Source of the DNA: a virus
Length of the DNA stretch: 34,585 nucleotides
Direction: 5' to 3' (one strand)
IMG/VR virus record: IMGVR_UViG_3300032286_000363
Span: 1-34,585 of that record
Under the pieces are notes generated by a model. It was not told the DNA's origin and did no database searches. It worked only from the letters and a program-made list of their open reading frames with translations. Below are positions 1,974-32,600 of this stretch, in pieces (the stretch's first letter is position 1; the number at the start of each line of letters is the position of its first letter). The position numbers and the translations under genes are program-made.

Positions 1974-2972
1974 CTATAATGTATTTCTAAAATCAGTTGT
2001 AAGATCTGTCCAAGTTCCTGAGTTTCTCAACCATAATTCATTAAAGTTTATAGATGGTGCATATCCATCATCTACATTAATAAATGTTCCAGATAGGAAA
2101 TAAAGATCTTTTTGTCCTGTAAGAACAGGAATCAATGTATTCTTTAAATCTGTAAAACTTGCCACTCTTATATATTCTGTAGCTAATTTAACACCAGCAC
2201 TGTATTTAGTGGGGTCTAAAACAAAGTTATAAGGAGCAGAACAAAGTGTAGCTCTATTTGTATATAGAATACTAGCAAGTGTATAGTATTGATCATTATC
2301 AGCAAATACACCAGCACCTCTAGTTGGAGCAGAACCACCAGAACCATTTGTCATAACCCAGTTAGCAGCTGTAACAACAGCACCACAGGTATTATCACTT
2401 GTAGCAGAAGTCTTTCCTCTTCTTAACATTCTACCTACATTATCATTAGCAGTAACAAGATCAGCTTGTTGTGTAACTCCTATGTGAGGCATGTTAATTA
2501 ACAATAATGGTCCATCAGTAGGAGTCATTGTTGTAGCATGACTTTGCCAAGCTTGTAATGCTAGAGCTCCTGTATGAGGATAACCAGCTAATCCACCACC
2601 CATAAATGGTCCAAGATAGGAATTTAATGCTGGAGGATTTTGTCCTATGTTATTAATATCAGCAAACTCAGAAGCATTAACATCATCTGAACACACTGTA
2701 AGATTTAAAACTGTATCACTGGTTTTCACACCTCTATCAGAAAGGAATAATTGTAATCTTGTAGCAAGATGTTGAGCTAATACAGCATCTGGATAGGTTG
2801 TTTGTACAACATCAAGATAGTGCTGAGTAGTCTTATTAAAATATTCTATAGGTTGAACCTCTTTCCATATACCCACCTTAGGAGCATGAGTGTATAAACC
2901 AAGACTTCCTGGTACTATTTCTCCATTTCTTAGAAACCTTGCATAAGGTTTTAACTTTATACTTTTTGTCAT
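1974..2972 (-). CDS. LCIB-type beta-carbonic-anhydrase-like protein fused to phage N-terminal module
   Basis: The protein has 332 residues. Residues 6-40 form a module (GSLGLYTHAPKVGIWKEV) shared with the protein at 4844-5581. Residues about 45-332 follow the order of the LCIB/LCIC family (limiting CO2-inducible B/C, a beta-carbonic-anhydrase relative). These are LTVCSDDVN (C94, D96), GGGLAGYPHTG (125-135), MPHIGV (H163), GRMLRRG (180-186), TCGAVVTAA (C196) and a C-terminal INFNELWLR. C94, H163 and C196 match the Cys-His-Cys zinc set of that family, and D96 keeps the C-x-D spacing of beta-type enzymes. The expected reaction is CO2 hydration. Algal and bacterial relatives, as I recall, often read CRDE where this protein has CSDD, so activity needs testing. 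It has no signal peptide. The stop is TAG, and the start overlaps the previous stop (TAATG). The domain call rests on motif order and spacing, not on a search. Confidence 0.8.
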   Translation of the reverse strand: MTKSIKLKPYARFLRNGEIVPGSLGLYTHAPKVGIWKEVQPIEYFNKTTQHYLDVVQTTYPDAVLAQHLATRLQLFLSDRGVKTSDTVLNLTVCSDDVNASEFADINNIGQNPPALNSYLGPFMGGGLAGYPHTGALALQAWQSHATTMTPTDGPLLLINMPHIGVTQQADLVTANDNVGRMLRRGKTSATSDNTCGAVVTAANWVMTNGSGGSAPTRGAGVFADNDQYYTLASILYTNRATLCSAPYNFVLDPTKYSAGVKLATEYIRVASFTDLKNTLIPVLTGQKDLYFLSGTFINVDDGYAPSINFNELWLRNSGTWTDLTTDFRNTL

Positions 2973-4126: not shown

Positions 4127-4411
4127 TTAATTTAGCTCTATGTCAAAAGTTATTGTTGCAGAAGTTTTAATACTCTTGCTCATATTTAATTTGATTTGGA
4201 ACATGTTGTGAAACTTTAACAACTCCTCTAATAGAAGATTGTTATATTTAGGAACAGATGTTGCTATTCTAAAATGATATGATTCTGGACCTCTGGTTAT
4301 TTCCATTGAACAAAGCTCATCTATGGAATCAATAAGTCCTTCTAAATGTGAGAAGTATGCAAGCTCATTGTCTGGCATAATCTCAGGAAAAAACTTCTTA
4401 TTTATTTGCAT
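4127..4411 (-). CDS. Conserved protein next to the Dps-like gene, unknown
   Basis: The protein has 94 residues and starts MQINKKFFPEIMPDNELAYF. It mixes a helical first half (LEGLIDSIDELCSMEI) with beta-like strands (YHFRIATSVP and SATITFDIEL). Its ATG overlaps the stop of the upstream Dps-like gene (TAATG), so the two are probably made together, which hints at a partner role. A second Met at residue 12 could also serve as start. It has no transmembrane segment or known enzyme motif. It is the last gene before the promoter-like site at 4094-4125. Confidence 0.6.
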   Translation of the reverse strand: MQINKKFFPEIMPDNELAYFSHLEGLIDSIDELCSMEITRGPESYHFRIATSVPKYNNLLLEELLKFHNMFQIKLNMSKSIKTSATITFDIELN

Positions 4412-4833
4412 TAAGACAGGGTTAACAAATACAATGTTTTAGCTGCTTCTCCAGATAGAGATTGTGCAATGTTTTCAATGTCACACATGTTATTAGCTTC
4501 TCCATACTCTTCCAACTCTTTAGCAAACATCTTAAGATCGTTCACCACAGATTTTGTTATTCCTATAGAGTAGTCTCTTAACATTTCGTGCTTCATTGCT
4601 TTAGGACGAGTTCCAGAATAGCCCATTATTTTTTCTACAATCTCATCCTTCAAGTCAAACACCTTATCATATAGTCCACCAAGAGCTTGGTGTTCTGCAT
4701 AACTAGTTGTTTGCCAATGTAATAGATGTAATTGGTCTACAAAATGTGTAAGCTTAGCAGCTATGCTGTCTAAGTTTAGAGAGCTTCCTCCCACACCTTC
4801 CATCATTCCTTCTGGGAATATTGATAATGCCAT
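4411..4833 (-). CDS. Dps/ferritin-like protein (DUF5856-like)
   Basis: The protein has 140 residues. Residues 23-70 form a helix pair with HLLHWQTTSYAEHQALGGLY (36-55) followed by DKVFDLKDEIVEKIMG (56-71). This is the Dps/ferritin-like pattern: H39-W40 then H48, acidic D56, and D63/E64/E67 on the next turn, as at Dps metal sites. A second helical half (about 82-138) would complete a four-helix bundle. Phage members are often called DUF5856 (from memory). Dps proteins bind DNA, oxidise iron and detoxify peroxide. Whether this one forms cages or binds metal cannot be seen. The first 17 residues are non-conserved. Its position among virion-type genes leaves open a structural role. Confidence 0.75.
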   Translation of the reverse strand: MALSIFPEGMMEGVGGSSLNLDSIAAKLTHFVDQLHLLHWQTTSYAEHQALGGLYDKVFDLKDEIVEKIMGYSGTRPKAMKHEMLRDYSIGITKSVVNDLKMFAKELEEYGEANNMCDIENIAQSLSGEAAKTLYLLTLS

Positions 4834-4843
4834 AAAGTTTGGT

Positions 4844-5581
4844 TTATATAGATACAGTCATCGTTAATGCTTGTTGTCCAGAGCAAATAGCTTGCTTCTG
4901 AAGATCTGTCATCACTAAAGTTAAATTTGTACCACCTGTTGTAGAGAAAACTCCAAGAACAGGATATGTAGTATTTAATCTAGTAACAAGGTCTGCAACA
5001 GTAGTAGACGATTGTGAAGAAGCAAGAGTTAAAACTAATGAATTAGATTGTTTAATTGAAACTATTACAGTACCATTGAACGCTGTAAGAGGTGTGATTA
5101 CTAAGTTTCCTACTCCTGTAGCTAATACATTAAGGGTTGTAGTTGCAGCTATTGCTGATGTAGTTACACCACCAAATGCTACACTAATACTTCCAGCAGA
5201 TGCACCAGTGATTGTAATACTAATTGTATATCGTTTACCTACTACAGCAGCTAATGAATTAGATAAAGCAGCTGTTCCTGTTGCATGAGCATATCCTGCA
5301 GCAAATGAACCAGACCATCCTGTACCAGCAGTCCAACCAGTGCTAGAAAGTAATTCACTTCCTATAGAACCACCACAATACATTCTCACTTTAAAGTTAG
5401 TGATTGCTGTAGCTACAGTTGTAGTTAATGTGTGATCTGTACAACATTCATATCCTTGTACTTCTGTCCATTTACCAACTTTAGGTTTTTGTCTTCTCAA
5501 GATCAATGATCCTGCAACAACTCTTCCGCTACCATCATAGCGAACAAAGGCTCTTAAGTCTTTCTTATTGTTTCCATTCAT
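4844..5581 (-). CDS. Probable virion protein with jelly-roll insert and shared N-terminal module
   Basis: The protein has 245 residues. Residues 9-41 include GSLILRRQKPKVGKWTEV, matching the N-terminal module of the carbonic-anhydrase-like protein at 1974-2972. Residues about 72-178 look like a carbohydrate-binding-type jelly roll: TGWTAGTGWSGSF, then GKRYTISITITG, then GNLVITPLTAFNGT. This pattern is frequent in phage tail and decoration proteins. The flanks (45-70 and 180-245) appear to be one domain interrupted by the jelly roll. A surface or tail decoration role that may bind glycans is inferred. It lies between the glycosyltransferase and the Dps-like gene. Confidence 0.65.
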   Translation of the reverse strand: MNGNNKKDLRAFVRYDGSGRVVAGSLILRRQKPKVGKWTEVQGYECCTDHTLTTTVATAITNFKVRMYCGGSIGSELLSSTGWTAGTGWSGSFAAGYAHATGTAALSNSLAAVVGKRYTISITITGASAGSISVAFGGVTTSAIAATTTLNVLATGVGNLVITPLTAFNGTVIVSIKQSNSLVLTLASSQSSTTVADLVTRLNTTYPVLGVFSTTGGTNLTLVMTDLQKQAICSGQQALTMTVSI

Positions 5582-6638: not shown

Positions 6639-7907
6639 TTAATCTGTTATGACTGTCCAATTTCTAGTTATCAATATACCTTTATCAATCAACCCTTGAC
6701 CTGTTGGAGGTGCTAGTGGTATTTGACTATTGATCAATAACCTACCTCTATTGTTTCCATTAGCCACTAACTGATTTAAAAGTTTATTCACTTGTGTAGA
6801 TGATAGTTTGTTTCCATAAAGTATTACAGTATTAAGATTCAATCTACTATAATCAACTTCTAATATTTGAAAATTACCATGATCACTAGTGCTATCAACA
6901 TATCCTATAACTGTTGGATCTTTCATATAAACTTTTACATCAAAGATATCATTAGAAGTAAATGTATGACTAATAATTTGAGGATGATTTGAAATATAAT
7001 ATTGTAAATTACTACCATCTCCCCAATCAATAAACATTTCAGTGTTTAATTGTACTATTCCATCATATTGTGCACCATCTGGACTACCAGCATTCCCTGC
7101 ACTATTATCTACTTTAAATGTAAACCCTAAAACGTATGAAAAATCTATAGATCCCTGTACACCTATAAATGGGTTAATTGGATCATAAACTCCTGTAACA
7201 TTTGTTATTGTATATCCACTTGCTGATTGATCTGTTATTTGAGCAGACAATGTATTTCCTTTGAATATTAATAATTTAGTCTTAGCTAATACTGTTAAAG
7301 GTGCTGTTGGTGGAGTGAAATTTAAACTAGGGATGCTATATAAATGCTCACTTGTCCATCTAAAATTAGTAATCTTGCCTTTAATTGCATTACCATTTCC
7401 TCTAGATCCTAAATATAATGGTAGACCATTTGTTGGAATAGTACCAGAGTAAAATCCATTTGCTATCGCTATACCATTTTGAAAAATCCCTATTTCATTT
7501 CTACGTCTAGTTACAGTGAAATAAGACCATGTTCCTATGTAGTTTTGTGGTAATGTAGCTGATAAAACTATACTTCCACCAATCCAATAATTCATTACTC
7601 CACCTTCTATACTAACAGCATGTGCTCCAGCAGAACCCACACTCCAAGCTCTAGGATTATTATTGTTAGAATCTATATTAGCCCACCATTCTATTGTATA
7701 ATCACTATCTGCAACAATCCCTTCTTGATATTCAGGAATGTCAAAGTTTGGACTGTTATCAATCATTAATGTAACGTTAGGAATGATAGGAACAAGAGGA
7801 CCTAAAACAACTTTAGATGTTACACTAATCAATCTTTCAAGTTGTTGAGAGATTTGATAGTATAAATTAGCCTCAGGGCCCCATCCTATTTGTTTTGATA
7901 TTCCCAT
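6639..7907 (-). CDS. Receptor-binding-type protein with LamG-like and PKD-like domains
   Basis: The protein has 422 residues. Residues 1-33 (QIGWGPEANLYYQISQQLER) form a module also encoded alone by the 42-aa gene just upstream. Residues about 65-212 look like a LamG/concanavalin-type lectin domain: SDYTIEWWANID, GTWSYFTVTRRRNEIGIFQN, PLYLGSRGNG, ITNFRWTSEHLY. Residues about 250-335 contain DWGDGSN (294-300) and SHTFTSNDIFDVKVYM, typical of PKD-like beta sandwiches. The C-terminal 80 residues resemble leucine-rich strands (LNLNTVILYGNKLSS). It probably recognises host surface glycans as a tail or fibre tip protein. The short N-terminus is likely the virion attachment segment. The ATG overlaps the stop of the 42-aa gene (TAATG). 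Confidence 0.75.
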   Translation of the reverse strand: MGISKQIGWGPEANLYYQISQQLERLISVTSKVVLGPLVPIIPNVTLMIDNSPNFDIPEYQEGIVADSDYTIEWWANIDSNNNNPRAWSVGSAGAHAVSIEGGVMNYWIGGSIVLSATLPQNYIGTWSYFTVTRRRNEIGIFQNGIAIANGFYSGTIPTNGLPLYLGSRGNGNAIKGKITNFRWTSEHLYSIPSLNFTPPTAPLTVLAKTKLLIFKGNTLSAQITDQSASGYTITNVTGVYDPINPFIGVQGSIDFSYVLGFTFKVDNSAGNAGSPDGAQYDGIVQLNTEMFIDWGDGSNLQYYISNHPQIISHTFTSNDIFDVKVYMKDPTVIGYVDSTSDHGNFQILEVDYSRLNLNTVILYGNKLSSTQVNKLLNQLVANGNNRGRLLINSQIPLAPPTGQGLIDKGILITRNWTVITD

Positions 7908-8115: not shown

Positions 8116-8532
8116 TTAAATCTTTGCCAACTGGAAGTGCATACCATCAGGTTTAGACCATGTACCACCCCAATAAAAACCATTGTCTGTAAAACATTTT
8201 ACAAATCCTGCAGACAATACTGGTTTACAACCAAAACAGTTCCAAGCTGCATTGAGATCTACAGCTATTCCCCAGCTATGTAAAGACATACTAGCTTGTC
8301 CTCTTTTCTTTCTAATATTAAAACAACCATCCCATGTCTTAAGTTCTTTAACATGATCTGTTGTTATAAGAGCTTGGAAAGCTGCAGCTAAAGGAACAAT
8401 AAGATCTTTGTTACAATATATCTTCTTAGGAATAACACCTATCTCTAAATATCCTGGAACATCCCACATAATCATAGCTGATTGATTGTTGGGATCTCCG
8501 TATTTCTTTAGTGCTTGTGCTGATGTAACCAT
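8116..8532 (-). CDS. M15-type peptidoglycan peptidase (endolysin)
   Basis: The protein has 138 residues. SLHSWGIAVDLNAAW (83-97) gives the M15/VanX-VanY pattern H85-x6-D92, and KPDGMHFQL (127-135) supplies the third zinc ligand H132 with D129 in the usual acidic position three residues before it. This is the Peptidase_M15_4 type of D-Ala-D-Ala/L-Ala-D-Glu peptidase found in many phage lysins. The expected role is cutting peptide stems of peptidoglycan at lysis. It has no signal peptide, so a holin or similar pore would be needed for release. Three extra Cys (C98, C101, C113) may form another metal or disulfide site. It follows two membrane-protein genes and overlaps the upstream stop (TAATG), as in a lysis cassette. 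Confidence 0.85.
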   Translation of the reverse strand: MVTSAQALKKYGDPNNQSAMIMWDVPGYLEIGVIPKKIYCNKDLIVPLAAAFQALITTDHVKELKTWDGCFNIRKKRGQASMSLHSWGIAVDLNAAWNCFGCKPVLSAGFVKCFTDNGFYWGGTWSKPDGMHFQLAKI

Positions 8533-14821: not shown

Positions 14822-17800
14822 TCAACGAACAAATCCTGATTGAGATTGTGCCTTAATACCAAGATCTTTGGCCACTTCTGGAACAAACAATGGTAGATAT
14901 TGTACAATCTGATTTGATACAGGGAACTGTTTCATTAAATATTTGACTGGTTTAGCACTTTCCACCCACTCATCATTTTGAAGAACAAGTCCAAACACTT
15001 CTTCCATAAAGTTTCCTATAAGCTTTCCAAAATTAGTCAATAGCCCTATAGAAGGGAACAATCCTCCAGATACAAGTTGTAATAGATTGGCAGGATTGTA
15101 GAAATACTGAATCTCATCTTTTAGTTTATCAGCAGCTCTCATCATAAACTTGTACTGATTTTTAACCATAGGATCTTCATCATCATCAGGAGCGTTTGCT
15201 TTAAGTGCTAAAACAAGACCAATCATTGATAAGAAGAACAATGTATCAACCATTTGACTTTTAACATTCCTTCTTACAAGATCCATGAATTCAGACTCTG
15301 TCATGTTAAGAGTCTTTCCTGTTTCTCTTTCATATTCTTCTTTCTTCTTTTCCCACATCTCTCTCATGTATTTAACACCTTCTTCATTACCTGAAAGAGT
15401 GTTGCTCAATCTTTTTACACTCTTTATAAGATCTAAAGAAAGCATACCATATACAGTTCTCATTCTTCCCCACTCATAAGCATCTGATGCAGAATTGTAT
15501 TTAAGATCTCCTGCTCTAACATCCACAAGTCTAGGAATCCAACGTTTAAACATCATGAATGAATTTCCGTACACATTCATATCTATAAGCCTTCTGCTAT
15601 CATCTGTTGCATTACCAAGAGCATCCTTAGTTATTTGTTGTATCTTTCTTCTAAGTGCAACAACACTTTCACTTTTTCTTTCAACACCTGGTATGACAAA
15701 CTCATTATCAACTATTTGTCCTAATTTAAGAACACCTTTTTCTTCTATAAGTTTAGCAACATCCTCTTCAAACTTAGCTTCTCTAGTCTTTCTTTGTTCA
15801 TTTGTTCCTTCATAGAAGTTTGCATATTCAGGAGACTTCTTAAGGAATTCTCTAGCATTCACCACTTCTCCATTTTCCACTATAGAATTCTTTAGGAATG
15901 AATAGAAATTCACTGTCTGAACATGTTTATCAGATTGTCTCATCAATATAAACATTGCATCTTGAATGTTCTCCTGGTTTAATGTGTTTAATGAAAGCTT
16001 TTTAGCAAACTCTCTATTGTAGTTTTCTGTTAAAGGAAGGAAGTATTCAAGTGCACCTATTGCTTTCTTTTGAAAATCTGTATTACCAAGCCCAATCATT
16101 TTACTATTAATCCAAGCTTCTGTAGCTAAATAATCAGATTTAGTAAAATACTTACCTGAATTAATTATAGATTGAGCTGTACCACCAAATAAGTTAGAAG
16201 TTGCTGATAGTAAGTTTAATCCCATTGTTTTTGTCTGAAACATCTTGTTCAATGTATCAATAGACTTGTTCAAAGAAATTTGTCTTCCCTCTAGTCCTTC
16301 TGGGAATAATTTAAATCCTAGTTTTGCATTCACCTTCTCTCCAAACTTACCAAAGGTGGCAAGTGCTTGATCAAATGTATCATTCTGAAGATACTTCTGT
16401 CCATATATAATACCCTTCACCATACTTTCTATAAGCTCAGCATTCTTACTATTATCTGGAGAAACGTCTATTTTTCCATTTTTATATTGTGTTCTAGAAA
16501 AATTGGAGGTTCTTATTGTTTCTTTGTTCCTTTCTAAATCAATTAGTGCAAGAGCTTGATCTTCAATTTCTGATAGATATTTAAACTTAATAGCCATCTC
16601 ATTGTATAAAGACATGTTCTTAAAAAGATCTTCACTAGCTTCTTCCTGCAGTTCTGTTGTAAAGTATTTAGGAATAGTGTCTATAGGTCTTCCTGTATGT
16701 GGATCTATTTTACCAAATCCAACATCACCTTCAGACATTGATATAGATTTTAAAAACTGTTCTCCCAAGGAAATATTCCCACCCATAACAATCTTTTCTA
16801 CAAGACTCTTTCTTATCCAAGGAAGGAATGTTCTATCCTCACCTCTTCCTAAATATCCTATAGAACGATAGTATTCATTTCTTTCTCTAATGTAATTATA
16901 GAAATCCAGAGCTGCTTGATTTTGTGGAGCATGTAGTTCTTTCCATTCTGCTGTTTGCCATTTCTCTTTAGGAAACTTCTTAATAAGTTCATATTGAAAC
17001 CATCCTGCACCATCTTTTGTAGATGTGTTGTACATCTTATCCACCTTGTTTAACTCATTGTTCATCTTCTGCTCATTCTCATCAGACTGTTCTCTATCTT
17101 TATATTTCTCTGTGATTCTTGTCTTCTCACTAGCAATCTCTTCTTTTAAGAATGCGTTATATTCAGAAATGTTTATATTATCTTTAACCCATTTGAAAAG
17201 ATCTGGATCTTTACTGTTAATTCTTTTCTGTAGTTCCTTATAGAAGTCAGCTTGATATTCATCAATCAATTCGTTTGTTCCTTTCTTCTTAAGGATATTG
17301 AAATAGTTTTTACCTGTTAAACCTTTTCCTTTAGCCCAAGCATCATATTTATCCTTAAGAGTTTGAAGCTTCTTACTTTGGTCCACTGTATCCATAGCTG
17401 CAAATGTAAGAGCTCTGTTTGCTTTTCTAAATAAGACTTTTGCAGAGTTAAGCTGTATTGTTGCTGTATCACTCCACCATTTAGCAAGCCCACTAATTGT
17501 TTTTTCCTCCTTTGTAATATCTTCCACCTCTTCAGCCTTACCAATAAAATTCTTAACAAATTCAGTCTTCATTCTATCAAGCTTGCTTTCTAACGATCTA
17601 GCTATCTTCACTGTTTTAGAAAGATCATTTTCAAGATCAGGATCTTCATCTTCTATAAAAAGATCTGCAAGATCAACATCAAGAGTGGTGTATGTACCAA
17701 GTGCTTTTTCAGCATCTAATATTTCTTTTACGAAAGCATTTACATCTTCTTCAGAAAAAGATTTTGGATCATTCCCTTTCCAATTATTCTCAAATCTCTC

Positions 17801-20665
17801 CATTAGATTCTTAATGCTTGAGTTGAAAACCTTAGCTTGTTCTAACAAAGGTTTAAGGTTTTGTCTCATTTGAAGCTGTCTAATAGCTGTAAACAAAGCA
17901 TTCAATTGTTCAGCCTTACTCTTCTTCTCTGAAGGAAGAACAGTCTTTTCAGAAAGTTTTCTATAATCAGCATTAAGCTTTTTCAATAACTTATCAACAT
18001 CATCATTTCCTGTTCTTTCTTCCTCTAGTCCTACAGGAACAAGATATGCATCTGTAATATTTTTAGGATCTACAGCACCTATCTCTACACCTATTAGTTC
18101 AGGAAGTATTCTTTGTTTAATGTCTCCTTCAGAATACTTTGCTTTAATAGGAATCATTCTTGTTTGATCAAATTGTTCCTCTTTAATACCATACGCATTA
18201 ATCAACATTGTCTTATATTGATCCATTTGGTTTTTCCATGCAGCCACTTTATACCAAGGAATTTCTTCATAAGCATCAGATAGAGCCATGAACTTCCAGT
18301 CAAGAAGGTTTACTCTTCCTTCAGGAGTGATGGCCATAAGATCTATTGTACCAGCTTTGTTTGTTTTAGGATCAAATATCTGCATCTCAGAAAGAAACAC
18401 TGTTCTATTACCTTCAGCATCCACCTTATCTAACGATCTAAGTCTTTCTAAAAGATTTTCTTTAAGAGTGTTATATATGTTTCTATTAGGATCTGTAGGA
18501 TCTATTTGAGGAACATATCCTGAATCATCCAATGGAACATCTCTTAAATGTCCATTCTCATCTACTAACACACCACCACGACCATCATTAAGCCCTCTTA
18601 TCAAGTATTCAAAATCATTATGTCCTGCTGTTCCTTTCTCAGCTTTAAGATCATCAACAGCTTTAGCTTCTTGACTCTTGAGAATCTCTCCACCTCTAAA
18701 TCTTCTTGCATACCAGTCTTTAATTTCATCAGAGACTCTTCTAGCTATCTGTGTAACACCATCTAAGAAATAACGATCTTGTTTTTCTCCATCTATTATG
18801 ACTTCCTTCTTTGTAAGCTTAGCATCTATCTCTCTAATTTTATCAATAGCAGATTCTTGTCTACTCTTTTGTAAGAACACCTTGCCTTCTTCAGCCCTAA
18901 TATCCTCCACTGTACCTATTTCTTTTCCAGATATAATGTCCATAGCAGCTCTATCAAAACCACTCTTCATAAACAATCCTTTAAACCATTCCACCATAGA
19001 AGACCACCAAGACTGTGATTTTGCTAGGAGCTCTGGTTTTTCTGTACTTCCTTCATTTTGGTTAATGATTGTTTCCACTAACACTTTTGCTATAGCCTCT
19101 TCTTTAAGTTTTAAGATGTCTGGTTTACCATCCTTCCCTTGATAGTTAGGATCAGATCCATAATCAGATAACACTTGCTTATATAAAGCATAGTTATTAA
19201 TTTCCTTAAGGAGAGTTTTATAAAGACTTGGGTTTGTTTGTTTTATAATCTCAACAGCAAAGTGCATCGCTTCCTCAGAAAGAGAAACACCTTCTGTTCC
19301 TTCAACCACTTGTACAAGATTTTGTGCAATTAAAGCAGCACCATTAGCATTTTGCTTAACACCATTTATAACAATCTCTTTCATTCCATTAATATCAACA
19401 CCTATTCTCTTAAGGAATTCCTTAACAAGAGCAAGTGTTTTAGGAGATGCTGTTGAAGACACTGTACTTTCTTCATTACCTTTTTGTTCTTGTTCTATAG
19501 CTTCTTCCTCATTAATTTCTTGTAAGAAATCATTATACACTTTTATATCTTTATTGTTTACATCCTGTGTGTAATATATAAATATACTTCCATCATCATT
19601 ATATGTAGCAGCTTTATAAAGTTTACCAGATACAATGAATGGTTTTTGTGTCAGGTTTACCATTTGTTTTATAATGGGAGTGTTAAGATCAAGATCCCAT
19701 CTATCAGAATACTGAAGATAATATCCTGTTCCATCTCTACCAACCTTCATAGCATACTTACCCATTGTAGCATTTTGTTTATCCACACCTGAAGTACGTC
19801 CTTTACTAAGCCATCTATTTAAATCTTTTTCATTAAATTCAAAATCATTGAAGTCATAGATGTCTTCTCCATTATTATCAAACACTACATTACCATTACG
19901 AATAAATCCTCTACCTACATATTTGAATGTATTATGTTTTTGTGGAAGACCGTTTGATAGTGCCCAAGCATCTTCTCTCTTCTTATATTGTTCAGGAGTG
20001 ATTTCTGTAGCCCACTTTGGTATAATCTTGTTCTCCTCACTTACATTGTTAGCAAGATCATCTTCTCTCCATTTCTTAATGGTGTTGATGAAATCATTAT
20101 AATCTCTACCTACAAATAAAGAAACGAGTGATTTTTTTAATATACGTGTTTTATTGTAGTTAGCTGGAGTGAGTGCTCTATATAGAAGTTTATTGATTAA
20201 TGGTATTTTACTTTTTTGATTAGATGTAATACCATATATCTTCATCTTTTCTGCATCTTCAAATATAGGTTTTGGTGTAGCAACTTTGTTTAATTGGAAT
20301 AATGTTCCTTGTGTTGGAGTTTTTGGTAACTTATCATATTCCTGTTGAGCAATAGGATGTACACTCACAATCACTTTAGCATTGTTTCCTGCTACAGTGA
20401 GTTTTGATTTAATCACAGAAGTTCCTTCTGGAGCGTTTAAAGACTTATTAATCTTCTGAATCAGTGCTACTTGTTTCTTGTTTTGTTCTGTTCCTGGAGA
20501 AGAGAATAAATATGTAGCAGTTGGTCCACTTCCATATTTTCTGAACAATCCAGAACCAGTGATTTGTTTCCAAACATCATGATAGATGTCAGTCAGTCTA
20601 TTGGCTAACTGAGGATAGTCTCCAAACTGTCTATCTATATATTCTACTCTACAAACATTACTCAT
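14822..20665 (-). CDS. Giant virion-type protein with PD-(D/E)XK nuclease-like domain
   Basis: The protein has 1947 residues. A PD-(D/E)XK-like site is visible: GTAGHNDFEYLI (H682, E686), AGTIDLMAI (D775) and LLDWKFM (D789-W-K791), the arrangement seen in Cas4/RecB-type nucleases. Further N-terminal, SEEAMHFAVEII (E464/E465, H468) resembles a metal-binding helix but is unassigned. The middle (about 800-1300) is long and helical with many charged residues. A hydrophobic helix lies near residues 1803-1823 (TLFFLSMIGLVLALKA), with further hydrophobic stretches near the C-terminus. It lies 14 bases after the giant polymerase-containing gene in one operon. By analogy with crAss-like phages it may be packaged in the capsid and injected. 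Nuclease activity, if any, could trim host or phage DNA. No frameshift is seen. Confidence 0.7.
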   Translation of the reverse strand: MSNVCRVEYIDRQFGDYPQLANRLTDIYHDVWKQITGSGLFRKYGSGPTATYLFSSPGTEQNKKQVALIQKINKSLNAPEGTSVIKSKLTVAGNNAKVIVSVHPIAQQEYDKLPKTPTQGTLFQLNKVATPKPIFEDAEKMKIYGITSNQKSKIPLINKLLYRALTPANYNKTRILKKSLVSLFVGRDYNDFINTIKKWREDDLANNVSEENKIIPKWATEITPEQYKKREDAWALSNGLPQKHNTFKYVGRGFIRNGNVVFDNNGEDIYDFNDFEFNEKDLNRWLSKGRTSGVDKQNATMGKYAMKVGRDGTGYYLQYSDRWDLDLNTPIIKQMVNLTQKPFIVSGKLYKAATYNDDGSIFIYYTQDVNNKDIKVYNDFLQEINEEEAIEQEQKGNEESTVSSTASPKTLALVKEFLKRIGVDINGMKEIVINGVKQNANGAALIAQNLVQVVEGTEGVSLSEEAMHFAVEIIKQTNPSLYKTLLKEINNYALYKQVLSDYGSDPNYQGKDGKPDILKLKEEAIAKVLVETIINQNEGSTEKPELLAKSQSWWSSMVEWFKGLFMKSGFDRAAMDIISGKEIGTVEDIRAEEGKVFLQKSRQESAIDKIREIDAKLTKKEVIIDGEKQDRYFLDGVTQIARRVSDEIKDWYARRFRGGEILKSQEAKAVDDLKAEKGTAGHNDFEYLIRGLNDGRGGVLVDENGHLRDVPLDDSGYVPQIDPTDPNRNIYNTLKENLLERLRSLDKVDAEGNRTVFLSEMQIFDPKTNKAGTIDLMAITPEGRVNLLDWKFMALSDAYEEIPWYKVAAWKNQMDQYKTMLINAYGIKEEQFDQTRMIPIKAKYSEGDIKQRILPELIGVEIGAVDPKNITDAYLVPVGLEEERTGNDDVDKLLKKLNADYRKLSEKTVLPSEKKSKAEQLNALFTAIRQLQMRQNLKPLLEQAKVFNSSIKNLMERFENNWKGNDPKSFSEEDVNAFVKEILDAEKALGTYTTLDVDLADLFIEDEDPDLENDLSKTVKIARSLESKLDRMKTEFVKNFIGKAEEVEDITKEEKTISGLAKWWSDTATIQLNSAKVLFRKANRALTFAAMDTVDQSKKLQTLKDKYDAWAKGKGLTGKNYFNILKKKGTNELIDEYQADFYKELQKRINSKDPDLFKWVKDNINISEYNAFLKEEIASEKTRITEKYKDREQSDENEQKMNNELNKVDKMYNTSTKDGAGWFQYELIKKFPKEKWQTAEWKELHAPQNQAALDFYNYIRERNEYYRSIGYLGRGEDRTFLPWIRKSLVEKIVMGGNISLGEQFLKSISMSEGDVGFGKIDPHTGRPIDTIPKYFTTELQEEASEDLFKNMSLYNEMAIKFKYLSEIEDQALALIDLERNKETIRTSNFSRTQYKNGKIDVSPDNSKNAELIESMVKGIIYGQKYLQNDTFDQALATFGKFGEKVNAKLGFKLFPEGLEGRQISLNKSIDTLNKMFQTKTMGLNLLSATSNLFGGTAQSIINSGKYFTKSDYLATEAWINSKMIGLGNTDFQKKAIGALEYFLPLTENYNREFAKKLSLNTLNQENIQDAMFILMRQSDKHVQTVNFYSFLKNSIVENGEVVNAREFLKKSPEYANFYEGTNEQRKTREAKFEEDVAKLIEEKGVLKLGQIVDNEFVIPGVERKSESVVALRRKIQQITKDALGNATDDSRRLIDMNVYGNSFMMFKRWIPRLVDVRAGDLKYNSASDAYEWGRMRTVYGMLSLDLIKSVKRLSNTLSGNEEGVKYMREMWEKKKEEYERETGKTLNMTESEFMDLVRRNVKSQMVDTLFFLSMIGLVLALKANAPDDDEDPMVKNQYKFMMRAADKLKDEIQYFYNPANLLQLVSGGLFPSIGLLTNFGKLIGNFMEEVFGLVLQNDEWVESAKPVKYLMKQFPVSNQIVQYLPLFVPEVAKDLGIKAQSQSGFVR

Positions 20666-20679
20666 TGTATATTATTTTT

Positions 20680-23600
20680 TTATATTATTCCACAAGGGTT
20701 TGGTTCATCAGCACCATCAAGGTCTTCATTATTTGGATCAAATGTTTGAGGTGCACTTGGTTTTCCTCCAAGTTTTTCAAGAGCATCTACTGTAGCTCTC
20801 ACTTCAATAGCAATCTTGTCTGGTGTAAGAAGGTCTTTGCTGTTTAACCAATACACATCTTTATCATTGTTGTCAATATGACTTTGCTCATGCAAAATTA
20901 AGAAAGTATTAATTAACTTGTTAGTATTTAGCATAGATTTTATAACATCTATTGTATATCCTTGTTTAGCTAATTCACTAAGCACTTGAGCTTTCTGTGC
21001 TGATGTAGGCCCTCCTTCTTTTCCTTCAAAATAATCAAAGAACTTATTCGCATCACTCACAGGATTGATGATTATTTTACCACCATCTGTAGAAGCATAT
21101 CTAATTGATCCATCAGTATTCTTAAGAGTTTTATCTACAGTGTATTCAGGAAGTTTTAATCCTTCTTCAGCTTTCTCACTTACAGGCTGTGTAGGTTGAG
21201 CTGTTAATTGCTTTTTATAATTTTCAAGATCTTTGTAATCATTTGGACCAGCTACACCATTTTCTATACGCTCTTCTAACTTACTAATTTTATTTTCAAT
21301 CTCAGCTTGTTTAGCAAGAGCTTCATCAAGTCCTTCAGGAGATTCAAAATTAGCAGCAGTTAATCCATATCCAGGTTCTATCTCAGCTTGTCTACCAATA
21401 TCTTCAACCTTTTCTGATTCTTTCTCAATCGTTGCTATAATAGGATCTGCAAGATCTTGTGTAACTGTTTCTCCTCCATAGAAGTCAATGATTGCTTGGT
21501 CTGGTATTTCGTTGCTCACTAACGTACCCTCTATATTTTTTATATTCTTTTCAGAACCATTGTTGAAAATAGAAGGTCTTCCATCTCCATAATATTCTGT
21601 AGCATACTGACCATCACCATGCAAGTTGATAAACTTGTAAACATATGTAGGATTACCATCTTTGTCATATCTTGCTATTACAGGAGAACCATCAGCATAT
21701 TTTACTTTTTGATATCCATAATAGTTTCTAAGAGAAAGATCTCCTTTCTCAGCCATCTTAGCATAATCTCTTGCTGTAATTTCTTTTCCTGTAGCAACAT
21801 CTATACGTCCTTCTGTAACATCTTTCTTGTTTATAGGAACTGTTCTAGGAACCTTGATCACATCATAGTTAGCCACCTTACCTTGATATTTTGCACTGAT
21901 GAACAAAAGATCTCTTTGCTTTTTTAGATTTGCTCCAAGTTCTTTTACCACTGGAAAAAATCCAGGAACAAGTATTTCTTGATCATTAAATTTCCCCAAC
22001 TTTTTAGTTCTTCCTTGAAATGTTCTTGGAAGATCATTTATTATTGCATAACTGTCTTGTTCTTCTGCCTCAAATGTAGGTTCTATAACAGGAACTACAT
22101 CATTATCTTGCCACTCATTTCTTTGGAACTCATTGCTTGTAGCAAATGCTCTTATCTCATCATCTACCGTTAAGCCTGCAAGAATAGGTGTGATGTGTGC
22201 AGAATAATCCTCTACAGGAATAATATTCTTTATAGAAATAGGAGATTGGTAGGTTCCTTGAATAATAGCAAGTCTAACTATTCCTTTATATAAAGCATTT
22301 GTTCTTGGATCATCTCTTAGCTCCCTCATCATTCCTGCATACATATTCTCATTATATGCAATCTTATCGTTCACTTTAAGCTTGATGGTTTGTGCACCAC
22401 CAATTCTTCCTGAACTATCCACTTCAAGGTCTTCTAAGATTTGTACTCCTGGGAATTCTTGTTTAGCTTTCAATAACATTTGTGCTACAGACTTACGATC
22501 ATCTACCAATTGTTCTTGTAGATTTGTAGCTATGTCAGATCTTTTCTGTATAATGTAGTCTAAGAACGCAGCTTTAATCTTGTTAGCTATTCTATCAAAC
22601 TTATCTTTAGTTAAGAATCTATCTTGTTCAAAACTTTTCAACACCTCATTTGTAACATCTGTAAACTGTGGAGTTTCTAAAACCAATGCCTCACCTAGAG
22701 CATCCATACTCATATCAAGATATTCTGCTTGCACCCCTATAAAGTTATTTTGTAAAAGGTTTCCTACAGAAGAAATGATATTTTTCTTTTGGGCAGCTTC
22801 TGTTCTCCATTGTTTTAACTGGAGTGAATCACCACTTTGGAATTTAGTGGTGTCATAGTTAGATGCTTGACCAAAGTTAAAACTGTATTCAGCCATCTTA
22901 GAATATTTCAAAAACTCGTTGAATATAGCAACTTGTTCACGGTTCTTTGCATCACCAAGATCTTTTGTAGCATAATAGTTTTTAATATTAGCTTCTAGTT
23001 CTCCCTTATTAAACCCAAGTGTACTAGCTGTTTCTGCAACTCTTGAAGGAAACTTATTTTTAATTGCTGAAATCTGCCTTGTATCAAATAAAGTTTTAAC
23101 ACCTTTGTTATCAAGCATTGTTAAATACTCATTGATAATAGGTTGGTTCATAAACATTACAAGTTGTCTGCTAGGAACACCTGTTCTTCTAAGGAACATA
23201 AATGTACCAACAGCAAGATTGTTCTTTATTATTTTAAGAATGTAAGGATCTTTTGCCACATCCACGAAAGAAGTTGCATATCCAGACAATCCATCAGATA
23301 TAAATTTACCATCAGTATCAAGCCTACCAGAAAGAGATATATAACTTTTCCCATTATCTTCAATTGTGTTATGATCTAATAACATTTCTCCACCATTATA
23401 TCTTAATATGTCTCTATCTTCTTTAGAAACATTATTAAATCTAGCTGGATCAATGTATGCTTTAAACTTCTGTGTAAGAGAATGTCCTGTAATATTAACA
23501 GCAGCTATACCCACCCACTTCTTAGCTGTAACGAACGCATGTCTAAGAGAAGTCATGTAGTTTCTATCAAGAAGTCTGTTCTTAATCTTACTCTCATCAT

Positions 23601-26600
23601 ATCCTCTCAACTCATCTAATACATTAGACAAATCCTTAAGACCATCATCACTTACAGGAGATATTAATCTTTGGAAGTTTTCTGGCATTGTTACAAGTTT
23701 TTCCAGAGAATCATAGTATTCATTCTCAAGAGCACGTCTATAAGAATCTTCTACAAACTTTTCTTTAAGCAATGCTTGTGCATCCTTGTCTCCAAGTTTC
23801 TCAAGTCTCTTCATAATATCATCCAATACATCTCTTTTTTCTTCCAATGTATTAGCTTCTGCAAATAAAATATCTATTGCATCTGCATATCTATCACCAA
23901 GGTTTTTAGGATCATCAAGACCTTCCACCATTATTGTAGCTGCATCAAATAGTTCAGCTTTGTTTATTTTTTGTAACTCAAGCTTTTCATCAAACACTTT
24001 AGCATAGAAATCTTTTGTAGCTTCTTCTGTACCCTTTAATTTTATAATCCTGATTTCACCATTCTTATCAATGTATACAGATTTAAGATACATGTTTAAT
24101 TTATCTATATCAAAATCCGATCCTGATTTAGTAGTGATCTCTGAAGGAACAATCACTGTCTTACCCATGTATTTAGGAAGAAATGCTTTCACTTTAAATG
24201 CTTCTACAGAAGATAGAGATTGTGTAGGAATACGGAAACCTATTCCAGATAGCAATTCTTTTCCTTCAGCTGTAGTGTTAAGAAACTTTATAAGTTCTTC
24301 ATCTGATTTATTTGCATGTTTACCAAGCTTACTTTTAAACCAATGAGGAAGCATAACTTCACAATAACGTTTACCATCTTCATCTTCATAAAACTTAAGA
24401 GTGTCATCTGTAAGAACCACCTTCTTTTGTTCTTCAGCAGAAAGTGCATCAAATTCTTGTCTTGTGATTTGCTTATAACCATCTGCTGTTTTAATTGCTA
24501 TCTTCCTTCCAGCTTTTTCATTTTCCCATAATGTAACAGGGGCCTGTACATAAGCACCACCATTCATTTTAGGAGATGTAATTTCTTTATCTATAAAGGA
24601 ATAAAGAATACTCTTAATCTGAAGATATGCAGGGGATGCTTCGAAAGGAATTATAAACTCCTTATTCTCATCAAGTTGTATAGAATCTTTAACATTATCA
24701 GAAAGTTCTCTTCTGAACATTTCATCTTGTAATGTTTTAGCAAGTCTTGTCTTATCGTTAATTTTATATGAACCACCAAGATCTTCAATACCAAGTCTTT
24801 TTAAGAATCTTTCATAACCATTCTTATGCAGTCTATTTAGGATGTCTCTATTTCTAGCTACCTCTTTAGCTATCTCTTCTTTTCTTTGAGGAGTTGCACC
24901 AATAGGTTCTCCATTCTCATAAAGATCTAGTGTAGAAATTTTTGTAACCTGTGATCCTCTTGTTTGCATTCCAGATCCTTCATATGCAGTTTCCACCTGA
25001 ATACCATATGCTTTCCAAGGAATTTCTATATTATTGTTAAATGCAGCATCATTGAATTGACCATTCTTAGTATAAAGATCATGCAAAGCTTCAGCTCCCA
25101 CCTTTCTACCAGAGATCATGATGATATATCCTTTCTTTTCTGCCATCATCTTTAAGTATAGTTTTTCAAGGTTTGTTCCTTGCACCATACTGTAATACAA
25201 AGGCATTTGGGAAAACTTATCTAATACAAGGTTTATTCTATTAACCCCATTAGTTACACCAGATACAATAGGTTTAACTATCTCAATCTTATGATCAGGC
25301 TGTTTAGTCTTTAGAAGAGCTATGTCATGTTTCTCAAGAGCTTTTCCTCTAACATCTTCTGAATATTTAAATCCAGGAAGGTTTTGTCTTGTGTAAGCCA
25401 TTTGCCATTGATGCCAAGCTTCTTCAACACCTTTGATGTTCCATTGACCATTCTTAATTTTCATTTCTCTATATGTACCATCCATCATTATAGAAGCTGC
25501 ATCACCTTCATTTGTTTTAGCAAATGCTTTTTTTACATCTTCAGGAACATTCTTCATGTTAGTAACACTTCCTACAATATTAACATCACTCACAGTCACT
25601 GTATCCATCCATGCTTTAGCCTGATGATAACCAGGTTCTCCAGGTAGTAATTGTATATCTCCTGCATTATTCAAATCCTCATTTATGAATGTGTTTAATT
25701 CAGGACTATCAATTGTTGTTCTTCTTGGAGAGAAGAAAGATTTAAACCTTTTAGTTGCATCCAATGTTCCATCTTCCTTAATAGCAAATTGATAAGGGTC
25801 ACCAAATATAATCTTGTGAAACTCTATGTTGTTGATTATATAGTTTGCATTTGCAAAAGTTATAATATTTGTAAGATCGTCTATTGTAAGTTTGCTCTTG
25901 TTAAGTTTTTCATTTATAGCAAACTTACCATTCAACATGTCATATCTATAATAATCTATACCAGTCGCTGCATCTCTAGTAACAAATTTCACTTGATTGT
26001 TCTGTAATAAGAAGTCTTTAGTTTTTGCAACTGTTCCATCTATGTATTCTTTTATAGAAGCGTTTACATCTTCAATATTATCATCTATAAAACTTTCAAT
26101 ATCTTGTTGTGTAGCATTTTCCTCAATCATTTGATTGATCTTAGTCAATGTTTTTTCAGAAAGAATGTCCTTAAAGAAACGAAGCTCGTAAGGTTTTTTC
26201 TTAAGATATTCTAGTTGAGCATTTAACTTTTTAACTTCTTCTTTTTGAGCATCTGATTTATTAGTTACAGCTTTTAAAGTTTCTAGTTTAGATTCTATAT
26301 CAGCAATTTTACGTAAACCACCAACATTCTCTACCTGCATTCTATTATCAGCATCAAGAGCAAGAGCTACATCATCTGTTAAATATCCTCTGAAGATTTC
26401 ATTAATCTTCTTCCAACCATCTTTTCCTTGTTCAATATCCTCAAAGGCAACATGGTTCCCCATATTCATCATCCATTCTGTAGAACCATCTGCAGGAATC
26501 ATGATGTAATACTGCCCAGTAAGGTTTTGATTTATCTCTTGTGTGTAACGATCACCTTCAGTGAGAGCTGTAGAACTAGTTCCTTTGTTTTTATCTTTAT

Positions 26601-29600
26601 CTTTTGTACCCTCAATATACCCCACTTTTAATTCAAGCTTAGTTCTCTTTCCATCTTTATCAAAGAACTGTCCTCCTTTCTTAAGAAGCAAAGCTCCTCT
26701 TGAATAAAGATCTTTAAGTTCTGGCCTAATAGCAAGAAGCTCATCTAAGGTTTTAGCTTCATTAAACTCATTCTCAAATACAGAAGGAACATTGTTATCA
26801 GTGAATGAATTAGATTGCTTACCATCAATATTTATACGTGTACTTTCTTGATTAGGATGTGTTACATTTACAAGAAGCGTAGCAAGTGTATCATAGTGAC
26901 CACCAACATCTAATGTATTTTTCTGTATACTCTTAATCTCTTTAGCTTTTTGTAAATACTCTTTGATGTTAGCTACAGCAAGTGTAAATTCTATTTTTTG
27001 AGGGTCTTTTAATTTAGCCCAAGCCTCTAGTGGAAATATAATACCAAGCTTAGCTAAGAATTTTTCTTTCTCTTCAGGAGTACCTGATGGTATTCCAGAT
27101 AGATCTGTAACAGAATATGATTTGTCAACACTATCCCATTTAATAACAGAGTCTTCCTCTTTAGAAAGTCCTTTTAGATTTGACACCCAGCTGTTTACAG
27201 TTTTATTAACTATACCTGTAACTAACGCAGAACCAGAATAAACTTGTCCTTGAGAGATGTATTGTATAACAGCGTTAGGTTTTTGCTTAGTGTAAGTTTG
27301 CATAAACTCAATGAAAAATCTCCAGTCTTCAAATTTAAAATCTTTGAAGTTAATAGTTTTATTTTCCATATTACCACCAAGTCTTTGGAACATAGATACA
27401 TAATTTGCATCTTCATTACCAAGCTTTACAACTTTACCAATAAGCTTTCCTATTGATGTGGTATTTTTAAATGCATCAAGCATTGTAACAAACGCTCTTG
27501 TGTAAGGAAGAAGAGAGAAAGTTTGATACTTTTTATTAATCTTAGGTTTAGGAAGATTGAATGAATTACTATCCTCTTGATTAGTTGGAACTCTATCAAG
27601 AAGTGTAGCAGATGCAAACTTAATACCCATAGGAGCATTCTTTTTCCAATCTGTAGAGAATGGTTCTCTAGTATAGTCATTCTTGTTTGTTTCTCCTTCA
27701 TTTATGTTTACAAGATCTTCTTCATTGAAATCCACCTTCAATAATGTTTTCAATTCTTGTTTAGTTTTAATAACAAGATCTTTCCAAGCTATGTCACCCA
27801 ACTCTTGTCTCACTCCTTGTTTTGTGTAAAACTCATCAATCATGCTGAATATATCATCACTTGTAAGATTTCTAAGATTGTACAAGGCAGTCTTATCTAT
27901 TGTTCCCATCTTACCACTTCCAAATATAATATTAGAAGCAATTGCCATCATATCCTTAACATAAGCATTTGTTTCTTCTTCTGTTAAATGTCCAGCACCT
28001 CTATATTGAGGAGGTATTGATTTTGATTCAGTTGACAGTTGTCTATCTTTAAACTTGCCTGATTCAATAGCTTTAAACAATTCTTCCTTAAGAGAAGGTT
28101 TTGCTACAAAGGATTTTATAAAATCAAGTATTCTTCTAAAGAAGTTTGTAATCTTTTCTCCAAGAGTTCTTACAGGAAGTTTACCTACTCTAAAATCAGC
28201 AAAATCATCTAAGATTCTTTCTTTCACCATATCATCACTCACTGTAGGATCATCGTGATTATATTTCTTACCAGTTTCTCTATCTGTAAACTGTCCAGTT
28301 TTATTTCTAAATTCAGCAATCAGTGCTGCTCTTTCTTCTTTTGTAAGCATACCATTCCAGATGGCTTCACCCACCTCATGGTATTCTGTACCCCTAAGAC
28401 CACCTTTGACAAATTTAGCTACACCATTTTCAAACACACCCCAAGCTTTTTCTCCATTGTGAAGATTAATCATGTTCTCCAACACCTCAAAAGGAATGAA
28501 TGGAACATATTTAGCATGCCATTCTTTAAAAGCTTTAAGATCAGCTTCTGTCATTCTATCTGTTCTATCCTTACCAACCTTTCTAAATCCAACATCATCT
28601 CTCTTTCCTATGTTATTAGGATTGAATGATCCTGGTTCCTTAGGAGTAGAAACTTGACCACCTTCTAAAGCAGCTAGTTCTGCATTATAATCTTCTTTAG
28701 AAATTACTTCTGAATCACCTGTTTTTAAATTTCTTACATCTATACTATTTTCTGTAACTCTTTCAACTTGGTATTCATCTAATTGAAACTTAATAATATC
28801 TCCTCTTTTTAAACTATCAGCTTTAGCATTTGTAGAAATAGGAGCTGATGTAGTTCCTTTTAATGCATCTATCTTAGCTTGATATTCAGCTCTAATCTTT
28901 ATTACAGCAGGATTGTTATCAAATTCTTCTGTTGTTTCAGTACCAGTTATTAATTCAAATAACTTATCATCTCTTTCTTTTTCTAATTTTTCTATTTCAG
29001 TAAGAGGGGCAGGAGGAACTATAGGAGCTACAGGTGGTACAACTACTACTGGTGGTGCAGGAGCAACTACAACATCTGTTTCTAATTCCTTTTTAACATA
29101 AGTGATGATGATGCTGTTTGCTTGAGGGATTAGTTCTTCTTCAGAAAGAGGAGCTTCTCCCTTTTTAATTCTAACATCATTTAATTTCTTAATGATTTTA
29201 TCTCTTGTAGTTTTAAATGTCTTATCCTCTTGATCAAACTTAGGATCTTCTCCTTCTTTTACAGTGAATATAACATCACCAAATGGTGTTGTGAATATAT
29301 TATCTGTCTCACCATCATAATCATATTTCCTTTTTGATTGTGTTGGGGGAGCTACTGGAGGAGCTGCTGGGGGAACTGGTTTAGCTATTACACCTACAGG
29401 AAGTTCTAGTCCTACAAGAGTAGAATACTTCTGTTCATGTGTTGTAGGAACTGCATCTGTGGGTTTTGTAATTTTTGTAGAAAGAGGTGTATCTTCTACA
29501 CTCCTTGAGGAGCCATTAGGATATTTAGAAGAAAGTAGATATGTTTGATAGTTAGTCCAATCATTGCTAACTAGCACACCATCCTTCATGTAATACTCTG

Positions 29601-32600
29601 TAAAGGGCTTGCTGAAGTTCTCAGGAGTAAGAGGATCATTGTTTACATTGTGGAAAGTTTTTTCTAAAGTCTCTATTATATCATCTTTTCTTTCAGCTAT
29701 TTCAGGAATAGAATAAGTGTTTCCTGATAGAGAAATAGAACTTCCATCTTCAGAGATGTTTATTTGATTAGATTCTGCTTCTGTTTTTCCTAGTCTCCAA
29801 TATAAAACATTCTGTAAAAATCTAGAAAGTTTTTTGTTTATAATGATTCTCTTTCCAGCATTAGATTGCTCATTGATTTCTGTAGCTATCTGTTTAATAA
29901 CTTCATAAATACCTTCTGCTTGTTTCTTTGTAAACTTCCTATTGTTTAAGAATTCAACATTGTCATTATGCACAAGCATAGGTCTACCATTAGGAACATT
30001 AATCTGTCCTGTATGATGTGCTACAACACCAGCTGTAGGAATTTGAATCAGTGTTTGATCTGTAGCAAGTGTTTGAGCTTCAGTCTTTTCATCAATAAGA
30101 ACACCTGATATATGATTGTCTACATCACCCATCTTAGCAATACCTCTAGACACTTGGAATGCAAAAGGTGTTGGTGATTCATTTGGATCTATACTAAATA
30201 TTTTTGCTCTTTGTATTTTCCAAGCAGCAGCATATGCTTCAGCTTCAGCTTTTTGATCTTTTCTATGTCTTGGTGCTCCGCTTTTATAATTAAGTTCTGT
30301 TGTACGCATTGTTTGAAAAACAACATCACTTAAATTTTCCACCTGTACACCCACCTCACCTATTTGATTTCCTTCCTTATCTACAAAGAATAATCTATCA
30401 CCCACTTGTTCAACAAACACTTGAGCAATAAATCCCTTATCAACACTTTCTACATCAGGAATTTCACTAAGAGGTTTGTTGTATGATAGTTCTACAAGTC
30501 CTTCCAGTCCATAAGCTTTTGCAAGAGCAGGAGTGACAAGAATAGCTCTCATGTTCTTTCTATTAGCCATTCCTCCTACATTATTCAAAAACTCTCTTTG
30601 GTTTCTAAGATTTATTGCTGCTTGTTTTGGATCTAGTGGTTCTCCATTCTCATCAATGTAATATCCTTCAGCTTCAGATTCTGATGTTCCAGATATAAAC
30701 AATATGCTTGCAGGTGGGATTTTTCCTTCAGGAGCAACACTATCCTTATTAGGATTGTTTGTTCCTACAGTACCAGAGTTATTAACAATCTCACCTTGTT
30801 GTTTTGTTATTTCTTCCTTGTTCTTTTTTAATTTATCAATTTCTTTCTTTCGTAATTCTTCTTCTTCTGTTAATTTTTTATTTTGTTGAGCTTGACTTTT
30901 GTAAACTTTATCAATATTATTTGTAACAATGCCTACCACTTCATCAAGAGCAGTATCATCCTCTATACCAAATAATCTTCTGAAGAAAGTTTTAAGATTG
31001 TCTACAAATGTATCCCAAGTACTCCTTTGTGTATTTTTATAAGGAATGCTATCTAAATATCTTTGAAAATCTCTATTTGAAAGAGCTTCTGTTGCAAACT
31101 CTTTTATGTTCTTAAATGCATAAAATTCTCCATTTCTTATAAGACCATTTTTTGAATATTTATTTTCATCTTTTTTGAAATGTTCTTGAACAAAATTGAA
31201 TAGAGGAAGTAATTCATCATAAAAAGAATTACTTTTATCTGATAATGCGTACACTGTAAGATCGTGTCCTATTTCATGAAGTATCACATATTCAACAGGA
31301 ATTGTAGTTCCTTCATAATCATCAGCGTTGTATTCAAAGTTTATTCTACTTATAGCATCTGTTGGACTAGTTAATGTTGTAGTAGATACTCCTGGATTAG
31401 GAAGAGTTCTATCTCCAAGAATAATCTTAGCGTTTCTATCTGTAAACTTCATAAACTGAGCAGCAAGTTCTTTCTCCATAGTTGTAGCATATGGAGATTC
31501 TAATATCTTCTTAAGAACTTCATACTTACTTTGTGTTCCTTGACCATACTGATTTACAAGATCGTCATATGTTCTTTTATCACCTTTAAATGGAAGTCTA
31601 CTTTGAACAGCATAGTTAGGCCCCCCTTTTTCTGGTTCACTAGAAGGAGTTGTTCTAAATTTCTTTCCCTGCTTATTTGTTCCTTTTCTCTCTCCTGTTT
31701 CATCATAAGCATTTGGATTATTTACCATATCCTTATACTCATTTAAAAACTTCCTTCTTCTTAAAGACATTTCTACAACATCCTTAACACTTTGTTTTGT
31801 ATTAGGAGTTGATATAGGATCACCATTTTTATCAAGTTCGTTTAACTGAGAAGCTAATGCTACTGATGAATCATTTGATAATTCATCATCTACAATACTT
31901 TGTATATCAATTCCTTTAGAAATTGCTGCTGCTGCTACTTGAGGAATACGAAGATCGTAATCAGCCACTTTACTAGCTGCATAAACCATCTTATCTATAA
32001 CTTGTGGAGAATACTTTTTTTGTTGTTTTCCATCAGGAGTTAATATAGCTTCACCATTATCATCTCTTAACACTTCACCACTAAATCTAAGATCTGTTGC
32101 TTTATATATTTCTTGTGTGTTCTTAGCAACTGTTTCAAAGTTTGAAAGTCTTTGTTGATATGATTGAATAGTGTCATTAATATTTGCAAACCCTTGTTGT
32201 TTAAGTGCAGCAAGTCCTTGTTCTGTAGAACCTTCTCTTTTAAGATCAGCAATATCATCCATCACCATATCAAACCTACCATATTTAATTCTAGGAGCAA
32301 TATAGTTATGCATCATATCAGCATCAAGATCTTTTGCCTCAAGCTTATCTCCTTGAATTACAGCAGCTTGTTGTTGTTGTTGTAATACAACACCTCTATT
32401 AGCACCAGCAAGTCTTTCTTTAAATGCTTCTTTAAATGTAGGAGCAGGATCTAATTCATTTATAAAATTTTGAGTGTTTGTTTTTAAAGCTCTACTTTCT
32501 TGGATGTTTCCTTTAATTTGCATCAGTCCACCTGTTAAACCTCCAAGAGCAATACTTTCCATACCCTCTTTAGAAACAAATGTACCTACACCTTTACCAC

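Follow-up and report, generated by a model that had tools for sequence, protein, structure and literature searches.

A predicted LCIB-type carbonic anhydrase with an N-terminal module common to a neighbouring late protein in a crAss-like phage genome

Introduction

The LCIB/LCIC family of beta-carbonic anhydrases (also called theta-carbonic anhydrases) and its structural relatives are already well described, with PtLCIB4 (5b5y), 6kfs, 9vzj and Chlamydomonas LCIB and LCIC among the members. The two Chlamydomonas proteins keep the fold, with no activity shown, and a review associates the inactivity of the algal proteins with disorder of His162/161 and Arg194/193 (PMC5876011). Carbonic anhydrase genes occur in viruses too: those predicted in Pandoravirus and Harvfovirus belong to giant viruses of eukaryotes. 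Vaccinia virions carry D8, a carbonic-anhydrase-fold domain that binds chondroitin sulfate (PMC4256255).

Here we describe an LCIB-family gene in a crAss-like phage. The window, which is the whole stretch of DNA analysed (34,585 nucleotides), comes from a virus record of 113,975 bases (IMGVR_UViG_3300032286_000363). We consider it probable, at roughly 0.6, that the gene encodes an LCIB-type zinc beta-carbonic anhydrase displayed on or packaged in phage particles.

Results

The window encodes an LCIB-family protein

The open reading frame starts at an ATG on the minus strand and encodes 332 amino acids, and the plus strand across the same interval is full of stops. The first-pass annotation had the coordinates exactly right, and all of the motifs that it quoted, from VCSDDVN to FNELWLR, are present at the residues given.

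1974-2972, minus strand: LCIB-type beta-carbonic-anhydrase-like gene, 332 aa (Pfam, PDB profile matches, AF2 model)
1977-2825, minus strand: LCIB catalytic-type domain, about residues 50-332 (alignments, tree, model)

Pfam LCIB_C_CA (PF18599) matched residues 65-228 with an E value of 1.9e-17 and a score of 63.7 bits, against a curated cut-off of 25 bits. Among PDB sequences, phmmer matched the protein to 6kfs, PtLCIB4 and 9vzj, and a profile built from 22 phage homologues found 6kfs at 2.4e-27 and also reached Chlamydomonas LCIC and LCIB. As far as residue 304, its C-terminal part aligned colinearly with a bacterial LCIB. An AlphaFold (AF2) model made with 52 sequences reached a pLDDT of 86.3 and a pTM of 0.84 (an earlier model had a pLDDT of 76), with a loop at residues 99-109 falling below 50. 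Foldseek aligned the model to 6kfs over 280 columns at 7.9e-14, with a TM score (target) of 0.81, and in both models the top seven PDB structural matches were LCIB-family entries, followed by beta-carbonic anhydrases. Giant-virus carbonic anhydrases matched the structure only weakly (best E=2.4e-3).

The LCIB-family assignment made in the first-pass annotation is supported by profile, structure model and conservation, with LCIB entries matched first and the Pfam score above cut-off, and we regard it as close to certain that the protein is an LCIB-family beta-carbonic-anhydrase homologue. The model has the same fold and the domain is colinear; residue identity in the structural match is only 20-23% for 6kfs and PtLCIB4. 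Relative to the LCIB/LCIC family, the phage proteins carry insertions around residues 105-115, and members of the window's clade have another at 166-176.

The catalytic set is invariant

We compared 81 phage and 30 cellular LCIB sequences, between which the median phage-cell identity is 26%. Across these 111 sequences, 15 of 283 core columns were invariant (C94, D96, F123, G126, G127, G130, G135, A141, H145, H163, G165, G180, R184, C196 and G197), and once Gly, Ala and Phe are set aside the invariant columns are exactly the following six, none of which was lost in any of the 81 phage sequences.

2691-2693, minus strand: C94 of the CSDD motif, predicted zinc ligand (no variation across the 81 phage and 30 cellular sequences)
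2685-2687, minus strand: D96, the CxD Asp, predicted to be catalytic (invariant)
2538-2540, minus strand: H145, aligned with PtLCIB4 H88 in the 5b5y and 5b5z alignments (invariant)
2484-2486, minus strand: H163, predicted zinc ligand, PHIG motif (invariant)
2421-2423, minus strand: R184, predicted partner of D96 (invariant)
2385-2387, minus strand: C196, predicted zinc ligand, TCGA motif (invariant)

The phage protein thus has in common with the LCIB/LCIC family the Cys-His-Cys set, the CxD motif, the H88-equivalent His and the invariant Arg. The H145 column holds Ala in the crystallised PtLCIB4 H88A mutant, marking H145 as the H88 equivalent. S95 corresponds in the alignment to PtLCIB4 Ser47, which is changed to Arg in the S47R mutant; here every phage sequence has either Ser, as in wild-type PtLCIB4, or Ala, and none has Arg. 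At position +6 from the first Cys, PtLCIB4 has Arg and the phage proteins do not. Tandem LCIB paralogues, two per locus, were found in seven of the loci fetched around homologues (L012, L013, L014, L015, L016, L017 and L099), and both copies have full catalytic sets. A comparison with one near relative (one pair) gave a dN/dS of 0.23, indicating purifying selection.

The C94/H163/C196 set proposed in the first-pass annotation as a zinc site is supported at the sequence level by its invariance in 111 sequences. That annotation had left the choice between CO2/bicarbonate chemistry and a non-catalytic scaffold; since the catalytic set is invariant in 81 phage sequences, paralogues included, a working metal site is favoured and the pure scaffold disfavoured. 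The alignments are strong evidence for a predicted intact metal site in the phage proteins, and the window protein would be expected to bind zinc and to be catalytic. An intact site is no proof of catalysis: in Chlamydomonas, both LCIB and LCIC retain the fold yet showed no activity. H145 and R184 are probably the equivalents of the His162/161 and Arg194/193 that the review associates with algal inactivity (PMC5876011).

Phage LCIB proteins form a clade spanning two phage groups

A single-sequence scan of IMG/VR found 34 relatives. A profile scan found 138 and we retained 80 of these; the contigs were as long as 272 kb. Searches by tblastn with the window protein, a T4-like relative and a bacterial relative gave no LCIB match in 50,697 phage records. 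Bacterial genomes yielded no match when searched with the phage profile and two loci in metagenome-assembled genomes (MAGs) when searched with a cellular profile, and cellular LCIB was present in 35 of 396 genomes sampled from the phylum to which a Bacteroidetes MAG belongs. All 41 phage rows in our tree grouped together beyond a branch with 100/100 support and a length of 1.59, with no cellular row within. The chromosomal LCIB proteins of Bacteroidota have the catalytic set and C-terminal part seen in phages, but they are about 225-255 aa long, lack the N-terminal module described below and never fall inside the phage clade.

LCIB genes occur in at least two unrelated phage groups. Because crAss-like and T4-like members are mixed within the phage clade of this unrooted tree, the gene has probably moved between the groups.

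On bacterial chromosomes, some LCIB genes adjoin genes for an SbtA-type bicarbonate transporter, PEP carboxylase or a SulP transporter. These neighbours connect the family in bacteria with bicarbonate. The SbtA neighbour was seen in three Bacteroidota genomes (L124:2332-3592, L127:2317-3577 and L134:86-1346), where the loci also encode a 100-aa protein that is PII-like in L124, the one tested; the arrangement resembles a bicarbonate-uptake operon. The PEP carboxylase gene lies in a Bacteroidetes MAG (L106:3224-6672) and the SulP gene, whose product has a STAS domain, in a Calditrichota MAG (L107:2308-4904).

The N-terminal module is common to LCIB and nearby proteins

Residues 1-47 of the window protein form a separate module, which the first-pass annotation had also recognised on a neighbouring protein. 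By blastp against all open reading frames of the fetched loci we confirmed that the protein encoded at 4844-5581 has the module (46% identity over 37 aa of the roughly 40-residue module, E ~1e-5 in a 720-protein set). The description of this neighbour as a jelly-roll protein was not confirmed, as no Pfam family scored above cut-off.

2832-2972, minus strand: N-terminal anchoring-type module of the LCIB protein, residues 1-47 (blastp against all ORFs of fetched loci)
4844-5581, minus strand: 245-aa protein that shares this N-terminal module, remainder without known domain (Pfam, blastp)
5441-5581, minus strand: the neighbour's copy of the module (blastp)

The window-type module is also found on small proteins encoded nearby in L003, L005 and L011, as if it worked as a general docking tag. 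In these proteins (L003:5444-5677, L005:4818-5060 and L011:5960-6424) the module is followed by threonine-rich linkers. Several different N-terminal modules occur among phage LCIB proteins, differing by lineage, and in four lineages (the window clade, L062, L085 and L065) the module is common to LCIB and a nearby protein. The L062 module matched the N-terminus of a 776-aa protein at L065:8917-11247 with 63% identity over 46 aa, and the C-terminal part of that protein resembles proteins annotated as tail spikes in Flavobacterium phages. A domain that stays constant while its docking modules are exchanged is the pattern expected of a virion-mounted enzyme.

Searches of phage records with the window module and with a T4-like module found no relatives, and no informative PHROGs family was obtained for either the LCIB proteins or their N-terminal modules. 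In L083 and L084 (7632-9962), the LCIB domain is embedded in a 776-aa protein with an extra 376-aa C-terminal region of no known family; both loci also carry a T4-like capsid gene.

LCIB genes often lie beside virion genes

Phage LCIB genes are often found beside capsid, portal or neck genes. In the T4-like loci L022 and L026, LCIB lies directly behind the major capsid gene and the portal gene, respectively, and in the crAss-like L008 it lies a few genes behind the portal and Crass_capsid genes. The fetched flanks contained a structural hallmark in 55 of 98 viral loci; the other 43, including those nearest the window's clade, had none within ~8 kb.

The terminase, portal and major capsid proteins of the window genome (G000) belong to the crAss-like families phrog_6681, phrog_6547 and phrog_11589, and the portal is most closely related to those of gut crAss-like phages. 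The window genome is that of a crAss-like phage (Crassvirales). All of its larger genes from ~72 kb down to the LCIB gene are on the minus strand, placing LCIB at the far end of a late/structural block; the run comprises the terminase, portal and capsid genes, tail-type genes and genes for very long proteins, as well as those for a lectin-like protein, for the 245-aa module protein and for LCIB itself. The lectin-like protein is a probable surface or fibre protein.

6639-7907, minus strand: 422-aa Laminin_G_3 protein, lectin-like and concanavalin-A-like (Pfam, 1.6e-09)

The suggestion that the LCIB protein carries a virion-type module is supported by this neighbourhood evidence together with the sharing of modules. 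The case for virion mounting of phage LCIB is good but indirect, and points to a protein that would be physically present in the virion.

Discussion

We propose that the short N-terminal module would dock the LCIB protein to the virion, as for the neighbouring late protein, and that the C-terminal LCIB domain would interconvert CO2 and bicarbonate. The virion may thereby carry a converter of CO2/bicarbonate and protons to the surface of the cell or, during entry, into its interior. The biological purpose is the weakest step of the proposal, and a thin one: the enzyme might change the local pH or might provide bicarbonate for the carboxylations behind nucleotide synthesis. The fuller proposal, that an active carbonic anhydrase sits on the particles, that one LCIB lineage has been mounted on crAss-like and T4-like virions by module swapping and that CO2/bicarbonate chemistry between virion and cell is part of infection, is tentative, and we put it at slightly under even odds.

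The late gene surroundings and N-terminal modules, along with the long branch to a separate clade, set the phage proteins apart from the described LCIB/LCIC family. The protein could instead be an intracellular auxiliary enzyme that supplies bicarbonate for purine, pyrimidine and lipid synthesis or balances pH, with a module that merely anchors or oligomerises it. We think this unlikely. Conservation of the full catalytic set suits such an enzyme, and the SbtA, PEP carboxylase and SulP transporter neighbours of the bacterial relatives fit metabolism; however, the phage genes are often in structural blocks rather than in early metabolic regions, and lineage-specific modules that recur on nearby proteins are unexpected for a free enzyme.

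Virion-type modules and lectin-like and tail-spike-like neighbours are also what one might see if the LCIB fold were used to bind a receptor or glycan, for which vaccinia D8 is a precedent (PMC4256255). We rate this use as improbable, as every catalytic residue is kept, with 0 losses in 81 sequences; this total conservation, extending even to the L012-L017 tandem paralogues, weakens the adhesin reading. The D8 and phage proteins would be alike in placing a carbonic-anhydrase fold on a virus particle together with an extra domain, oligomer-forming in D8. D8 is an adhesin with a fold of the alpha class, unlike the beta-type phage protein, which keeps a complete beta-carbonic-anhydrase catalytic set.

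The beta-carbonic-anhydrase fold also includes carbon disulfide hydrolase, and 3ten was a weak structural match, but all better matches were LCIB proteins and true carbonic anhydrases, so that a different small substrate, for instance carbonyl sulfide or carbon disulfide, seems very improbable. Chance resemblance or misassignment can be dismissed, since profile, PDB, structure and conservation evidence agree and nothing was found in its favour.

In the open literature we found no description of LCIB in phages, of its docking to virion-type modules or of its spread over two phage groups, although unpublished or subscription reports may exist. If active and on the virion, the protein would represent a new type of virion enzyme whose target is dissolved inorganic carbon and pH, in contrast to those acting on cell wall or capsule, and it would provide a convenient means of testing whether phages control CO2/bicarbonate during entry. 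The viral relatives, numbering at least 138, form a large natural set from a family in which the algal founding members, once purified, seem to lack activity.

Host and other genes of the window genome

The closest match of the large terminase subunit was a Leptolyngbya phage (38.8%), with Cellulophaga phages also among its relatives. A cyanobacterial host was set aside, given the best portal matches in gut crAss-like phages, and is also disfavoured by a host-like 827-aa protein (G000:80735-83218, equal to L038:8736-11219) that carries a TIG domain along with SprB and T9SS sorting signals scoring below threshold, which are typical of Bacteroidota. These sequence features point to a probable Bacteroidota host.

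Two giant open reading frames, at 20680-34005 (4441 aa, scanned against PHROGs only) and 14822-20665 (1947 aa), had no Pfam or PHROGs assignment worth naming. The gene at 8116-8532 encodes an M15-type peptidase, a probable endolysin. A DUF6321 protein is encoded at 1438-1785 and has relatives near LCIB in eleven loci, and the Dps/ferritin-like (DUF5856) gene at 4411-4833 has counterparts near LCIB in nine loci from different crAss-like phages.
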